A stretch of 64,000 bases of DNA from Flavobacterium sp. N2820 (GTDB taxonomy: Bacteria > Bacteroidota > Bacteroidia > Flavobacteriales > Flavobacteriaceae). The position numbers were made by a program, and so were the translations under genes. Positions 2,924 to 41,378 of the stretch are shown here, piece after piece (within the stretch, counting starts at the first letter, position 1; each line of letters starts with the position of its first letter). The notes under the pieces were generated by a model that worked only from the letters and a program-made list of their open reading frames with translations, did not search any database and was not told where the DNA came from. The stretch lies in NCBI RefSeq assembly GCF_025947285.1, contig NZ_CP110008.1, positions 310,001 to 374,000 of the forward strand. Direction: 5' to 3'.

Positions 2924-2953
2924 TTGTGTAGTATTAAGAAATACTTATTTTTA
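2924..2953 (+). promoter_or_regulatory. Candidate cphB promoter
   Basis: A TTG at 2924-2926 and TATTTTTA at 2946-2953 are 19 bp apart, close to the flavobacterial TTG-N19-TAnnTTTG pattern (last base A rather than G). Transcription would begin almost at the ATG at 2958, which argues against the longer reading frame that opens at 2919 and suggests a very short or absent leader. Confidence 0.5.
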
Positions 2954-2957
2954 CGGC

Positions 2958-3830
2958 ATGGAAATACAAGGGAAATTAATAATCATTGGTGGCGCTGTAG
3001 ATAAAGGGAGTTTTACAGAAACCAATTTGGATAAAGATGCTTCAAAGAATTTGAATTTTTTCGAGACAGGAATTTTAAAAAGAATCATTAAGGAATCAAA
3101 ACATAAAGAAGCATCACGTATTGAAGTAATAACAACAGCTTCAAAAATTCCAAGAGAAATTGGTCCAGAATACGTAAAAGCATTTAGCTATTTAGGAGCT
3201 CACAATGTTGATGTTTTATATATTGAGAAAAGAGAACAAGCCAACGATCAAGAAGTTTTAGAACGATTGAAAGCAGCAGATGCCGTAATGTTTACTGGTG
3301 GTGATCAATTGCGTTTGACTTCCATTTTAGGCGGAACTCCTTTTGATGATATGCTGATTTCGAAATACAAAAACGAAGAATTTATTTATGCTGGAACTTC
3401 GGCTGGAGCAGCGGCAGCTTCAAACAATATGATTTATCAAGGAAGTAGTTCAGAAGCGTTGCTTAAAGGGGAAGTAAAAATCACCTCGGGTCTAGGATTA
3501 ATTGACGATGTAGTTATAGATACACATTTTGTACAAAGAGGAAGAATCGGTCGTTTGTTTCAAGCGGTAGTTGGAAATCCCAAAGTGTTGGGAATAGGTT
3601 TAGGAGAAGATACGGGATTGTTAATTACGAATGGTCGCCAAATGGAAGCCATTGGTTCTGGATTAGTAATTTTAGTTGATGGAAGGGAAGTAAAAGACAC
3701 CAATTTGACTCAGGTTGAATTAGGACAACCCATCTCAATAAATCATCTGGTTACACACGTAATGAGTCAATTTGATAAATTCGATTTAGATACGTTTAAA
3801 ATGACGATACATTCGTCACAATATGTTTAA
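2958..3830 (+). CDS. cphB: Cyanophycinase CphB
   Basis: Serine exopeptidase of the S51 family that cuts cyanophycin to beta-Asp-Arg dipeptides. The 290-residue product begins MEIQGKLIIIGGA, typical of the family, carries MFTGGDQLRLT near 111-121 and the nucleophile motif AGTSAGA with Ser148, then DTHFVQRGR. The frame is open back to 2919, but a probable -7 element lies inside that extension, so the ATG at 2958 is preferred. No signal peptide is seen, so it should act on intracellular granules. It lies between the divergent cphA and the co-directional isoaspartyl peptidase gene, which would finish the degradation. Confidence 0.95.
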   Translation: MEIQGKLIIIGGAVDKGSFTETNLDKDASKNLNFFETGILKRIIKESKHKEASRIEVITTASKIPREIGPEYVKAFSYLGAHNVDVLYIEKREQANDQEVLERLKAADAVMFTGGDQLRLTSILGGTPFDDMLISKYKNEEFIYAGTSAGAAAASNNMIYQGSSSEALLKGEVKITSGLGLIDDVVIDTHFVQRGRIGRLFQAVVGNPKVLGIGLGEDTGLLITNGRQMEAIGSGLVILVDGREVKDTNLTQVELGQPISINHLVTHVMSQFDKFDLDTFKMTIHSSQYV

Positions 3831-33898: not shown

Positions 33899-33936
33899 GA
33901 TTGGTTAGTTTTAAAAAGAAGATAAATACTTTATAG

Positions 33937-34019
33937 TGACCATGGAGGGATTTGAACCCTCACGCCCTTGCGAGCACCACCCCCTCAAGATGGCGAGTCT
34001 ACCGTTTCTCCACATGGCC
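33937..34019 (-). tRNA. tRNA-Leu (GAG)
   Basis: Class II tRNA of 83 nt with acceptor GGCCATG/CATGGTC, anticodon stem CCATC/GGTGG around loop TTGAGGG and a long variable arm. CCA is not encoded. Last of three tRNAs on this transcript. Confidence 0.95.
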
Positions 34020-34029
34020 TTAAAATAAT

Positions 34030-34054
34030 AAAGACGTTGCACTGCAACGTCTTT
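34030..34054 (-). other. Strong hairpin between tRNA-Lys and tRNA-Leu
   Basis: AAAGACGTTGCA-C-TGCAACGTCTTT, a 12-bp inverted repeat. Followed on the minus strand by ATTATTTT, so it could act as a partial terminator that lowers tRNA-Leu relative to tRNA-Lys, or as a processing signal. Confidence 0.6.
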
Positions 34055-34059
34055 GAAAG

Positions 34060-34132
34060 TGACCTGGCTGGGGCTCGAACCCAGGACCCCATCATTAAAA
34101 GTGATGTGCTCTACCAACTGAGCTACCAAGTC
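34060..34132 (-). tRNA. tRNA-Lys (TTT), copy 2
   Basis: 73 nt, acceptor GACTTGG/CCAGGTC, anticodon stem CATCA/TGATG around CTTTTAA. Identical to the upstream copy. Confidence 0.96.
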
Positions 34133-34135
34133 GTT

Positions 34136-34253
34136 GCATTCAAGAAAATAGTCTTTTTTAGTGACCTGGCTGGGGCTCGAACCCAGGACCCCATCATTAA
34201 AAGTGATGTGCTCTACCAACTGAGCTACCAAGTCATTTTCTTTTCTTGAATGC
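34136..34253 (-). repeat. 13-bp inverted repeat enclosing tRNA-Lys copy 1
   Basis: GCATTCAAGAAAA (34136-34148) and TTTTCTTGAATGC (34241-34253) are perfect complements that flank the tRNA, and could pair in the precursor as a stem that brackets it. Confidence 0.6.
34162..34234 (-). tRNA. tRNA-Lys (TTT), copy 1
   Basis: Same 73-nt sequence as copy 2; first tRNA after the promoter at 34259-34288. Confidence 0.96.
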
Positions 34254-34258
34254 GGGTG

Positions 34259-34288
34259 CAAATATATAAACATTTATTTATTTTCCAA
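34259..34288 (-). promoter_or_regulatory. tRNA operon promoter
   Basis: Minus strand TTG (34286-34288), 19 bp, TATATTTG (34259-34266), followed by CACCCGCATT. The CACCCGC just after the -7 element is the same as in rRNA promoters P1 and P3. Confidence 0.85.
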
Positions 34289-37456: not shown

Positions 37457-37559
37457 TTTATGAGTTATGAAATGAGCGTTTTTTAAGATAACTTTTAACG
37501 GCTTCTAAAATGGTTTGATTTTCAATATTGTTTTATCATTGAACATCAAAAAATAAGCT

Positions 37560-37616
37560 TAAACACAAACCTCGCTATATTACCGAACTGCGGTTAACGG
37601 TTGCTTTTCTTTATTA
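37560..37616. other. Cassette-type spacer after gene 37617-38375
   Basis: A GTTAACGG box (37593-37600, plus strand) lies 18 bp past the gene end, next to GAACTGCGG. Similar GTTRRY boxes follow the three other genes of the region. Confidence 0.35.
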
Positions 37617-38375
37617 TTAAAAATGACTTGATAAGTTAATTGAAAATTCAAATTTTGATGTTACGTTATGTCCATCTTTATTGCCAGGTATCCATTTATA
37701 TGAATTAATAAACTTCTTAATAATTTCTTTAAGTTCAATATTTTCCTCTGTTGAATACGATATGTCTGAAACTGATGAGTTTTTGTCAATGGTAATGCTA
37801 ATTTTAGTTTTTAATTGATATATACCATTACTATCTTTCTTGAAAAGTTCGGCATGTTCTGCAATCTCTCTACTAAATTCATATACAAAATATTCACCAC
37901 CTGTTGTACAAGTTGGCAAACAGTCAAGCTTTGTTTTACTCTCTTTACCATCTTCAAAAACTGAATGTTCTTTTAAATCTGACCCACACAGTTTTGAAAA
38001 AACAACCTTATTCTCTGTCCAGTTATAAATAAGAACTGTGTCACCATCATAATTATAGTATGTCCAGTCTCCTTTTTTTATGTCATTGTCATAATATCCA
38101 GTCGCTTTAGGACCTTTAAAGTGTTTCCCGTAATATTGTTCTGTCCACAATCCCACTTTTTTATTATTATTATAAGTGCCTTTTAATAATACTCGACTTC
38201 CGGTGTAAGCTTTGATTTGATAATCACCATGTTTGATTGAATCGTTACCGGCTAAAACATAAAAAATGGCTGTTCCTTCTTGTGTGTTTTCTCTCTTTTT
38301 TTTTGTTTTTACATCTTGTCCAAATGATAAAAATGTATTTAAAATAATTAAGGAAACAGTGAATGTTTTTTTCAT
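37617..38375 (-). CDS. Hypothetical secreted protein with MORN/YwqK-like repeats and TonB-like C-terminus
   Basis: A 252-residue protein with signal peptide (VSLIILNTFLSFGQD). The middle has repeats of the type GxYxNNxKxGxWTxYY (GTYNNNKKVGLWTEQYYG, GYYDNDIKKGDWTYYNYDG, 70-120) as in YwqK/MORN proteins. The C-terminal third (KISITIDKNSSVSDISY, WIPGNKDGHNVTSKFEFSI) resembles a TonB C-terminal fold. Function unknown. Fourth and most distal gene of the cassette-like region. Confidence 0.7.
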   Translation of the reverse strand: MKKTFTVSLIILNTFLSFGQDVKTKKKRENTQEGTAIFYVLAGNDSIKHGDYQIKAYTGSRVLLKGTYNNNKKVGLWTEQYYGKHFKGPKATGYYDNDIKKGDWTYYNYDGDTVLIYNWTENKVVFSKLCGSDLKEHSVFEDGKESKTKLDCLPTCTTGGEYFVYEFSREIAEHAELFKKDSNGIYQLKTKISITIDKNSSVSDISYSTEENIELKEIIKKFINSYKWIPGNKDGHNVTSKFEFSINLSSHF

Positions 38376-38556
38376 AGTATTTGTTTTACTGTGTTTGTTT
38401 TAAAGTTTCTATTAGCGTTATAAGGTTTGTTTTCATTGGTGTTGAGCGAATACCAAGCCATCACAAATATAACAAAACATTGCATTCAGTAGAGGATTTT
38501 TGCGTAGGGAAATTTGGATTGTTGACGAAGAAGGAAAAGGCTGTTAGCGGTAGTTT
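38376..38556. other. attC-like spacer between cassette genes
   Basis: A 181-bp spacer without a gene. A GTTAGCGG box (38542-38549, plus strand) lies 8 bp beyond the end of gene 38557-39054; the other end has GCGTTATAAGG and an imperfect GGTGTTGAGCGAATACC. Confidence 0.4.
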
Positions 38557-39054
38557 TTATATTCTCATTCCCATTTTGCAAAATAATTGCTTAAAGTCAT
38601 TGATTTCCAATTTTCCAGTATGCTTGACTTTAATTTCTGATTTTAATTTTGTATAATTTGAATAATGAAAACTCGATATTTCGTCCTCTAACTTTTCATT
38701 TCTAATTAGCCATAACGCTTCGTATCTTCCATTATTCGTTTGCTGTTGAACAATTTTTGAATAATCATAATATGAAAATAATTTTTCTTTTTTTATAAAT
38801 GGAAATATTAGACTTTTAAATATAATTTTATCTTTTTCAACTATTATTTGTTTTACTTGTAAAAGTAGATATAACGCTACAGTCTCTATTAACAATATTG
38901 TAATTCCTGCTATTTTAGAACTTTCTCCATTCCAAAATTCCTTTGTAAGGGGACTAGCATCAGCTTTTGTAAATAATAGCCAAAATAAAATTCCAGAAAG
39001 AAAGTTAACTATTAGAATAAGGAGAATAGAACTAAGTTTGTATTTTGAATTCAT
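38557..39054 (-). CDS. Hypothetical membrane protein
   Basis: A 165-residue protein with two N-terminal membrane helices (LSSILLILIVNFLSGILFWLL and IAGITILLIETVALYLLL) and a cytoplasmic C-terminal domain with a PH-like strand pattern (QIIVEKDKIIFKSLIFPF). No family assigned. Lies between two cassette-type spacers, each about 160-180 bp. Confidence 0.65.
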   Translation of the reverse strand: MNSKYKLSSILLILIVNFLSGILFWLLFTKADASPLTKEFWNGESSKIAGITILLIETVALYLLLQVKQIIVEKDKIIFKSLIFPFIKKEKLFSYYDYSKIVQQQTNNGRYEALWLIRNEKLEDEISSFHYSNYTKLKSEIKVKHTGKLEINDFKQLFCKMGMRI

Positions 39055-39212
39055 ATTTTTTAAAATTGGGCATAAAGTTTTTCGGCTTGGCGATGTGACG
39101 GATTATAAGCAAAAAAGTTCAATAGAATTCCTAATGTTGAATATTGCACAAGTGTTTCAAAGAAGCACTTCAGCCGCCATATTGCCAAACCGATGTTGGT
39201 GGCTGGGCTTCT
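39055..39212. other. attC-like spacer between cassette genes
   Basis: A 158-bp spacer. GTTGGTGG (39195-39202, plus strand) is 11 bp beyond the end of gene 39213-40307; nearby GCCGCCATATTGCC and CGGCTTGGCGATGTGACGG give partial inverted symmetry. Confidence 0.4.
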
Positions 39213-40307
39213 TTAGTGTTGCTTAAATCTTTCAAATGTCTGCCAATATTTGTCTTTGTAAATATCATATTCTATTTCAAATTTGTCACCATATTTTTTT
39301 TGTGTTTCATTAAACGTTTTTGATACTTTTCTAAAATCGTTGCAAGCAAAATAAATATCTCTTTCATTATTGGCTGTCTGTCTGCCAATATTTAAATTTC
39401 CATCTTTGTCTTTTAAGGAAAGCATAATTTCATCTTCAATAGTTCCCAAAAGTTCGTAATCAGCGTTATTGGGCATTCCATTGTTTTTGCTTCCATCATA
39501 TTTTAATGTCATAACTGCAAGCCAAGGGTGTGATGCTTGTCTGTCCCATTCCAATAAGTTTGTATTGATAACAGCAAGCAACATATTGCCACTTTCTAAC
39601 TTGGCTTCCATTATTGAATATTCGTCATTTTCAGTGTCATATCTCACACCGTCATATTTTTCTACAAATTCCTTTTGTCGCCAAGTTAAAAAATCTTTAA
39701 GTTTAGCAATAGGCACAAGTTCTTTTTTGGCTTCGCTTTTTGCTATTACTTGTAAATTGTCAATGTTATTTACAAAATCAAGTTCTCCTAAGTAATTATC
39801 TAAAAAAATGTAAGTCCCATTTATTATTTGCTGTCTATTATCGTCATTCATATCATTGTGAGTAATACAAACATCAATTTCGTCTGGATAATTTGGCAGG
39901 TCGTTAGAATAAAAATATAAATTCTCCGAGTTGAACTTTAATCCTGCCATTTCAATAGAAACATCTTCAATATTCAATGCTGGCTTTAATGCAGTAAACT
40001 TCCAACCATTAATATTTGGGGCAGAAGCAACAAGTTCTTCAATAAATACAATGTTCTTTGTATTTCCGTCTGCCGTCAAAACTAATTCAACTGTGTTGTC
40101 GTCAAACATTCCCGTTAAATAGAAATAGCCGTCTTTTAGTTCTCCGAGTTTAGGTGATAATTTGTCAAAAAATCCTTTCTCAATGTTTTGTCTGCTCTTA
40201 ACAACATTATAAAAGTCTTTTTCATTTTTTTGGAACCAAGTCCAAAAGTCAAAATAGCTTTTGATTGGTTCGTCTTTCTTTCCGAAGATATTTTTTAGAA
40301 AACTCAT
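39213..40307 (-). CDS. DUF695-like domain protein
   Basis: A 364-residue cytoplasmic protein. The C-terminal half resembles DUF695 (NDEYSIMEAKLESGNMLLAVINT, HPWLAVMTLKYD, NGMPNNADYELLGTIEDEI); the N-terminal half (FDFWTWFQKNEKDFYNVV) is an alpha-beta domain of unknown role. No signal peptide. The gene has its own long leader spacer and its base use is slightly richer in G/C than the neighbours, in keeping with a mobile origin. DUF695 is assigned from memory. Confidence 0.7.
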   Translation of the reverse strand: MSFLKNIFGKKDEPIKSYFDFWTWFQKNEKDFYNVVKSRQNIEKGFFDKLSPKLGELKDGYFYLTGMFDDNTVELVLTADGNTKNIVFIEELVASAPNINGWKFTALKPALNIEDVSIEMAGLKFNSENLYFYSNDLPNYPDEIDVCITHNDMNDDNRQQIINGTYIFLDNYLGELDFVNNIDNLQVIAKSEAKKELVPIAKLKDFLTWRQKEFVEKYDGVRYDTENDEYSIMEAKLESGNMLLAVINTNLLEWDRQASHPWLAVMTLKYDGSKNNGMPNNADYELLGTIEDEIMLSLKDKDGNLNIGRQTANNERDIYFACNDFRKVSKTFNETQKKYGDKFEIEYDIYKDKYWQTFERFKQH

Positions 40308-40524
40308 ATGTCTGTCAAAGTAATTTTAATTTTTGTAGGATGTCTGTTTAGCCTGACCGCTAACGTTCCCGTGCTTTGCGTCTGTTGCTGCTGCAAGCAC
40401 GAACCAAACAAACCTACAAAATTAATTTGAAAGATAGAATTGTAGCCACCAGATTATTTTCCACGAAGACTAAATAGCAAGCGCAAGCCCAGCAATAGCG
40501 TGAAACACGTGTTAACTGCAGTTC
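40308..40524. other. attC-like spacer between cassette genes
   Basis: A 217-bp spacer bounded by CCGCTAAC (40357-40364; GTTAGCGG on the minus strand) and GTTAACTG (40511-40518), with internal inverted stretches such as CCGTGCTTTGCG / GCAAGCACG. This gives the two-ended box arrangement expected for an attC-type recombination site. Confidence 0.45.
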
Positions 40525-40986
40525 TTAATCATAATTTCCATGTATTCTATTTAGTTCATTTAAAGTAAAATCTTTAATTTCAAACTCACTTCCTCCAACT
40601 TTAGTGTAGGCGACTTTTTTTCTACTTTTAATTGCAAAAAGATCAATTACCATAATTCTAAGACTTCCATTTTTCCATGTTGCTGGTCTAATTGAAATAA
40701 TTGATACAAGTTTATTTGATTTTGTTAAATTATAAATATCCTCTTTATTAACAATAGTTATTTTTTTGCCCAAAATAACTTTCGGTATTTTATTTGTTGT
40801 AAATTCATTTTCTTCTAAATATAGTTCATCAGAAAATTTTAACTTAGGATTATTCTTGTAGAATTCTATTTTATGTGAAATATGAATTTTTAACGCATTA
40901 GAATAAACATTTAAACTATCAATTTCTTGAGAATTGGCTTTCAGTTGAAATAAAATCATTAGTAATATTAATGTTGATTTTCTCAT
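40525..40986 (-). CDS. Hypothetical secreted protein
   Basis: A 153-residue protein with signal peptide (TLILLMILFQLKANSQE). The mature part has no motif I recognise. It is the first gene after the integrase remnant; GTTAACTG lies 8 bp after its stop and another GTTAACT box (41013-41019) lies upstream of its start. Confidence 0.7.
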   Translation of the reverse strand: MRKSTLILLMILFQLKANSQEIDSLNVYSNALKIHISHKIEFYKNNPKLKFSDELYLEENEFTTNKIPKVILGKKITIVNKEDIYNLTKSNKLVSIISIRPATWKNGSLRIMVIDLFAIKSRKKVAYTKVGGSEFEIKDFTLNELNRIHGNYD

Positions 40987-41063
40987 GATTCCCAGGCGTT
41001 TTTTAGAATTGCAGTTAACTAGTAAATATCATCAAATATATACAACTTTTTTAATTTTTGAAA

Positions 41064-41327
41064 TTAATCTTCCAGTTTTGTCGTACTAGTTATATCAACC
41101 ATACAATCCAATGGACTCTGAATTTTGTCTACAGTAGTTTTGGTTAAATGCGTATAAATTGTCGCGGTTTTTATACTCGAATGCCCTAATAATTTTTGAA
41201 TGTATCATAAATCCGCTCTACTTTTTAACAAGTAAGTTGCATAACTGTGACGAAGTTAAGGTAGCGTAACAGGTTTGTTAATTGAAGCTAATTTAATACT
41301 CCCTCTAAACTTCTGGTAAAATAGTGT
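41064..41327 (-). pseudogene. Tyrosine recombinase (integron-integrase-like) C-terminal remnant
   Basis: The minus strand encodes SIKLASINKPVTLP, stop, LRHSYATYLLKSRADL, stop, YIQKLLGHSSIKTATIYTH, then TKTTVDKIQSPLD, all in one frame. These are the conserved blocks of a tyrosine recombinase: Arg in LRHSYAT, His in LLGHSS, the nucleophile Tyr in IYTH, and the SPLD tail seen in integron-type integrases. Two in-frame stops, TAA (41256-41258) and TGA (41205-41207), and loss of the N-terminal two thirds show it is dead. It sits upstream of, and on the same strand as, the four cassette-like genes. Confidence 0.85.
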
Positions 41328-41378
41328 TTTTTATTCTTCATCTATAACTTAATTTTTAGTTGCTAAGGAAAGTAAAAT

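Follow-up and report, generated by a model that had tools for sequence, protein, structure and literature searches.

The segment between 37.5 and 41.3 kb of the window (the whole 64,000-nucleotide stretch of Flavobacterium sp. N2820 analysed here) is very probably the dying end of an integron-like element, made up of a truncated integrase gene and four cassettes, with an attI-like site that bears a promoter box (Table 1). The element appears to be part of a system for gene capture, integron-like and seemingly widespread in Bacteroidota, whose recombinase seems unlike the known integron integrases. The original prediction of a decayed integron-like cassette array was supported by matches to a model built from other loci, and the array can be linked to a seemingly intact copy elsewhere in the genome and to similar loci in the rest of the phylum.

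Table 1. Features of the integron-like element in the window (positions count from the first base of the window).
Feature	Position	Strand	Evidence or remark
Integrase gene remnant, C-terminal part	41064..41330	-	Translation; in-frame stops, N-terminal part gone
Candidate cassette promoter, TATATTTG box	41033..41040	-	Presumed Bacteroidota-type -7 element
attI-like site ...TTGATGATATTTACTAG^TTAAC, crossover G at 41019	41014..41063	-	Near-identical sequence behind the intact integrases of L032 and L035
Cassette 1 (secreted 153-aa ORF, 40525-40986)	40364..41018	-	Start pairs with own end
attC-like site S1, two intact boxes	40357..40518	-	R1 49.7 bits, E 1.3e-8; R2 59.8 bits
Cassette 2 (DUF695 ORF, 39213-40307)	39076..40363	-	PF05117, E 7.4e-16
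attC-like site S2, right-hand box damaged (GTT -> TTT)	39069..39202	-	R1 58.9 bits, E 1.3e-10; R2 63.5 bits
Cassette 3 (membrane ORF, 38557-39054)	38416..39075	-	By eye
attC-like site S3, right-hand box GTT -> GCT	38409..38550	-	Alignment score 139; partial 13-bit R1 match
Cassette 4 (secreted MORN-like ORF, 37617-38375)	37601..38415	-	ORF list
S4, first half of an attC-like site	37566..37600	-	Marginal alignment; second half unsure, perhaps near 37490

The four predicted ORFs were all present on the minus strand, each followed by a GTT-type box as read by eye (40511-40518, 39195-39202, 38543-38550 and 37593-37600). The boxes are real, but they lie 6-16 bp past the stops and not 8-18 bp as first given. 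Covariance model R1 was made from 28 attC-like sites of other loci and no window site was used in its training; E-values of the covariance models are rough owing to a short calibration. Over the 64 kb, R1 matched S1 and S2, both on the minus strand and both over the whole model, and the next-best matches had E-values of 0.96 (part of the third spacer, 13 bits) and 2.8. The boxes that had been noted at both ends of a 217-bp spacer proved to be the two ends of a single site, S1, which aligned best with a site of the second array in the same genome. The third spacer aligned over its full length with a related site (score 139, compared to a maximum of 29 in 10 shuffles) and is a damaged homologue. 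The fourth spacer aligned over its first 46 bases only (score 35, shuffled maximum 31) and gave no match to R1 or R2; its first half alone may be marginally recognisable as attC-like. As for the attC-like fold that had been expected, the site family covaries strongly, but two window spacers folded singly as DNA were not significant (z +0.35 and -1.59). The signal of the sites resides in covariation and in the circle form described below, not in the folding of a single spacer.

Traces of cassette structure were visible in the window as well. Cassette 1 carries an 18-bp inverted repeat, its start (41002-41019) being 89% complementary to its own end (40511-40528) with a mismatch at base 10. When compared by eye, the start and the end of cassette 2 were alike over about 16 bases and the start of cassette 3 did not match its own end. 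The pairing rule with a mismatch at base 10 was followed by cassettes 1 and 2 (by eye) and in part by cassette 4. Searches of Pfam and NCBIfam and searches for repeats gave no lead for the ORFs of cassettes 1, 3 and 4, for the last of which no family was found by Pfam.

Translation of the remnant confirmed that the HxLRH/LRHSYAT, LLGHSS, IYTH and SPLD blocks claimed for the dead integrase are retained, with stops inside. Its best NCBIfam match was the integron integrase model TIGR02249 (74 bits), followed by XerD (68 bits), both far below the whole-protein cut-offs; on DNA, the TIGR02249 match covered 41100-41327 (71 bits) and contained two internal stops. Over 67 aa the remnant shared 67% identity with the genome's own intact integrase of 592 aa. 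The sequence behind the remnant, TATATTTGATGATATTTACTAG^TTAAC, is about the same as that found behind the intact integrases of L032 and L035 at their first cassette.

The gene order at this locus is not the same in all relatives. In 16 of 29 relatives, the flanking transketolase and FKBP-like genes are separated by 61-587 bp with nothing array-like between them; in the other 13 no FKBP-like gene was found within the 1.5 kb examined. In a near relative (G012), an attI-like sequence and other ORFs stand directly behind the transketolase gene, and no integrase match was found at that locus.

The genome that contains the window also carries what is apparently an intact version of the system, with an integrase, an attI-like site and 22 sites: a TIGR02249 match (G000:C1:1179806-1180621) is followed by the 22 sites at 1.181-1.199 Mb. 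A match in another genome of the genus (G011:C43:15000-15812) is likewise followed by a row of about 20 sites, and TIGR02249 matches of about 100 bits or more adjoin such rows. R1 sites were found in 36 of the 41 genus genomes, with 43 in the source genome, and (at E up to 0.1) beside 16 of 20 integrase loci; three of the four loci lacking sites (L042, L046 and L048) are near contig ends. The integrase gene is directed at the array in most of the 20 loci, and behind most of the integrases an attI-like AG^TT with a common upstream sequence could be seen by eye. For L038 and L041, no such sequence was seen in the part examined. In L041 (G030), the array lies on the opposite side and strand relative to the integrase from that in the other loci, and two of its sites are nearly 200 bp long. 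A second array in the source genome (1.262-1.273 Mb; L013, G000:C1:1252001-1272000, and L136) has about 11 sites and an attI-like start, beside which there was no integrase match.

In the site, NNNNNAAC and one further base lead into an inner arm of 11-13 bp that holds an unpaired position. The loop and the returning arm come next, and five unpaired bases then separate the arm from GTTNNNNN. By eye, the consensus C-N-GCTAAC ... GTTAGC-N-G differs from the classical attC boxes (RYYYAAC/GTTRRRY) at one or two positions. A plain MAFFT alignment of 28 sites, not fitted to structure, predicted 24 pairs, 19 of them with compensatory change. In 150 sites aligned to the model, an alignment that was fitted to the structure, 88.2% of cells were paired compared to 28.0-41.4% with slid partners, doubly changed cells numbered 827 compared to 61-173, and covariation was 0.579 compared to 0.022-0.067. 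When the columns of the same 150 sites were shuffled, two of five measures were not clearly above the shuffles (double-change pairs, 18/500; further pair types, 109/500).

The cassette start pairs with the sequence at and ahead of the left box of its own cassette. In 74 cassettes, 8.2 of 10 positions paired with the own end and 4.27 with the neighbouring site, and random pairing reached at most 4.57 in 200 shuffles; the cassettes are not all independent because some loci come from one genome (L018/L139/L140; L141/L142; L012/L013). The smaller pairing set comprised 74 of 74 cassettes and the larger one 145 of 150 adjacent pairs, five having been dropped for their spacing or a non-TT start. Pairing spans positions 1-9 and 11-14 and ends at 15. 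Base 10 is paired in none of the 74 cassettes and in about 1 of 145; in the larger set it is A at the start and C at the end in 123 cassettes and A and G in 17, and the A.C combination corresponds to a G.T wobble on the bottom strand. The longest ORF is on the strand of the site in 69 of the 74 cassettes, with its start at a median of 34 nt past G^TT and its end 16 nt before the left-box end. Of 21 homologous blocks of at least 230 bp, six had their ends, in each copy, 2-3 nt beyond the G of GTT; the left ends of the blocks were generally not on cassette borders, and 10 of the 21 were a 1.24-kb repeat with other ends. One cassette is common to two genus genomes and Flavobacterium enshiense DK69 (96-99% identity). 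Together, the cassette pairing and the GTT junctions point to integron-type recombination. The 1.24-kb repeat, 98.6-100% identical and found at several places within the cassette array of L141 and L142 (G104), looks like an insertion sequence.

Folding energies were compared for 60 sampled cassettes. The circle form folded better than the array form in 93% of them, and in the circle form the bottom strand folded better than the top in 85% (p 2e-8), compared to 62% in the array form. The working form, as seen elsewhere in this genome and in the phylum, has a tyrosine recombinase gene that is usually aimed at the array. About 40-160 bp past its stop lies an attI-like site, and then come single-gene cassettes in a row on one strand, with a hairpin site of 125-165 bp at the end of each. 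We propose that recombination at the G^TT box would release a cassette as a circle, in which its start and end would rejoin to restore an outer stem of 14 bp whose halves are kept apart in the array. The recombinase, presumably the one encoded beside the arrays, would act on the bottom strand in its folded state, the better-folding of the two strands, and would insert the circle at attI or at another site.

Many of the site loops carry a promoter-like box. The motif TAnnTTTG, which we take to be the Bacteroidota -7 element, occurred in 96 of 168 loops when the gene strand was read, in most cases 47-48 nt ahead of G^TT, and in 5 on the other strand; the expected number was 14.3, with a maximum of 27 in 200 simulations. 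The motif was rare in seven of 18 loci (L051, L045, L043, L188, L063, L082 and L143), and the loop box is therefore typical of many arrays, not of all. The same motif also lies no more than 60 nt from the stop of the integrase gene in 15 of the 20 intact loci. The loop boxes may serve in transcription of the cassette that follows. With an outer stem, a fixed mismatch and a loop promoter box of their own, the sites are probably not classical attC sites.

Among 80 named loci listed with a relative of the integrase, 19 bear R1 sites (E up to 1). All are from Bacteroidota (Flavobacterium, Algibacter, Winogradskyella, Seonamhaeicola, Algoriphagus, Cyclobacterium, Aquiflexum, Pontibacter and MAGs), and no R1 sites were found in the 37 loci titled as other phyla or domains among the loci listed, the sole set from outside the phylum that was searched. 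In 296 genomes of the phylum, R2 sites were found in at least 147 and the integrase profile (E 1e-60) in at least 95, both counts being lower bounds since at most 11 site candidates and 5 integrase candidates were scored per genome. Sites and integrase occurred together in 84 genomes, sites alone in 63, integrase alone in 11 and neither in 138 (odds ratio 16.7, p 2e-21). Counting against our main reading are the 63 of 147 site genomes that had no integrase match at E 1e-60, the 11 of 95 integrase genomes that had no site, the four of 20 genus integrase loci without sites and, in the window, the damaged boxes of S2 and S3, the marginal S4 and the unmatched start of cassette 3. The plasmids searched with one site gave no match.

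The catalytic residues are all invariant in 20 integrases of the family, and the source genome has a separate Xer-type gene (L132). The family integrases have an extra N-terminal domain, for which DUF5710 is a weak lead, with a best E of 0.0034 and matches at E up to 1 in 8 of 18 members. The HARP domain of SMARCAL1 (4o66), the top Foldseek hit (E 0.38, not significant), is another weak lead; a HARP-like fold was absent from the VIA matches listed and had no sequence support, and we keep it as a lead only. Three copies of the domain had been considered for the integrases of 588-602 aa, an idea that was weakened when one copy was clear (E 3.4e-8 in L032, 3.6e-7 in L035 and 5.9e-4 in L034) and the others had E-values of 0.0039-9.8.

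We consider it fairly probable that these loci represent a phylum-wide integron lineage of Bacteroidota distinct from IntI. Its XerA-like recombinase without I2 would have a private N-terminal domain for reading DNA, its hairpin site would form the 14-bp outer stem only in the excised circle, and one obligatory mismatch (G.T on the bottom strand, A.C on the top) would set the choice of strand. Many sites would carry the promoter of the next cassette, so that arrays need not rely on one promoter, and the window would hold a fossil. An ordinary integron, with a divergent IntI and divergent attC sites that make it a new member of the known family, would share the layout of integrase, attI, same-strand cassettes and hairpin sites cut at GTT, and TIGR02249 is indeed among the best models and IntI4 among the best folds. 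We regard this as unlikely. The recombinase has 16 residues where IntI4 has 60, the IntI-specific I2 insertion is missing in an alignment of 20 integrases, and TIGR02249 scored below its cut-off in 41 of 41 genus genomes. In the tree, the IntI proteins formed a clade of their own with the family recombinases outside it; a single clade for all site-associated integrases was neither shown nor rejected (p-AU 0.39), in a tree whose bootstrap had not converged. R1 had no match at the loci of seven insertion-bearing IntI; a heuristic search gave three classical-looking attC sites in one of these loci (L128) and none in the other six. The recombinase is nearest to integron- and XerA-type models and not to phage integrases, as had been predicted, but the insertion by which IntI is defined is missing from it, so "integron-type" should not be taken to mean IntI. 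Judged by its recombinase sequence, the system is probably not a canonical integron, and it is integron-like by its anatomy and its traces of recombination.

A dispersed palindromic repeat of the REP or MITE kind that settles behind genes, with the integrase as a bystander, would account for the single sites and small groups of sites that lie away from any integrase (for example L137 and L138 in the source genome) and for sites in genomes with no detected integrase. Such a repeat would leave unexplained why the sequence upstream of a gene pairs with the box downstream of that same gene, why junctions fall within GTT, why arrays begin at an attI-like site beside an integrase, and why sites and integrase co-occur, and we think it very improbable. 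An ordinary genomic island or conserved gene cluster with boxes by chance deserves still less credit. Short GTTARC sequences are common in this AT-rich genome, one loose pattern occurring at 63 places, but the model matches at 1.3e-10 and 1.3e-8 already refute this account, and it is also contradicted by the 16 of 29 relatives whose flanking genes have no array between them.

Compared with sedentary chromosomal integrons (IntI, attI and attC), the Bacteroidota system has the same recombinase gene, attI-like site, long same-strand rows of single-ORF cassettes and hairpin sites, the crossover at a GTT box, a bottom strand that folds best, and damaged copies with few cassettes. Of the features by which integrons are recognised, we found an array of single-ORF cassettes on one strand with hairpin sites, cassettes that are joined and split as units at GTT, and attI beside the integrase at the start of the first cassette; an IntI with the I2 insertion was not found among the family integrases. 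The system differs in its recombinase, which carries the extra N-terminal domain and falls outside the clade of IntI proteins, in that the gene is usually aimed at the array, in the 14-bp outer stem where base 10 stays unpaired in the circle form, and in the promoter-like loop box of many arrays. Xer recombinases are single housekeeping enzymes acting on one chromosomal dif; the family differs from XerA, XerC and XerD in its extra domain and in the many cassette sites beside the gene, and no single dif-like site was seen beside a family integrase. Clusters of attC sites without an integrase are termed CALIN in IntegronFinder. The window array resembles these in having sites and no working integrase, although its sites are probably of another sequence and structure family.

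The system was apparently overlooked because neither its enzyme nor its DNA sites fit the usual definitions. IntegronFinder requires the additional IntI region. In one study, integrases were likewise selected by the additional domain, with intI found in the Bacteroidetes/Chlorobi group (PMC2426708); a selection of this kind would leave the family integrases out. A 2022 survey of RefSeq genomes gives one complete integron inside Bacteroidetes, in Salinibacter ruber, earlier finds being integrases without cassettes (PMC9024848), and Bacteroidota are listed among integron-bearing phyla in two other papers (PMC8618304, PMC9668308). We found no description of the system in the open-licence PMC literature. 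Integrons are held to be rare in Bacteroidetes, yet half of the 296 genomes bear sites and a third bear a matching recombinase. If active, the system would represent a large unsearched pool of mobile genes, and many of the genes examined here seem to encode secreted proteins or lipoproteins. It would also be a second solution to the recombination of folded single strands of DNA, one that does without the insertion considered essential in IntI, and would offer a means to test the purpose of that insertion. The search model obtained here can be used on all public genomes.

Some further observations were made on the cassettes of the intact array in the source genome (L012). Many of its cassette ORFs have starts that look like those of secreted proteins or lipoproteins. 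Among ten ORFs scanned, LprI (a lysozyme inhibitor) and an outer-membrane beta-barrel passed the Pfam cut-offs. Two adjacent cassettes (L012:2319-2786 and 2932-3399) encode proteins that are identical over the 60 residues compared, and they probably arose by recent tandem duplication of a whole cassette. Elsewhere in the window, ORF 33911-34273 with its repeated VAQLVEHITFNDGVLGSSPSQVT resembles a translation of tandem tRNA genes.
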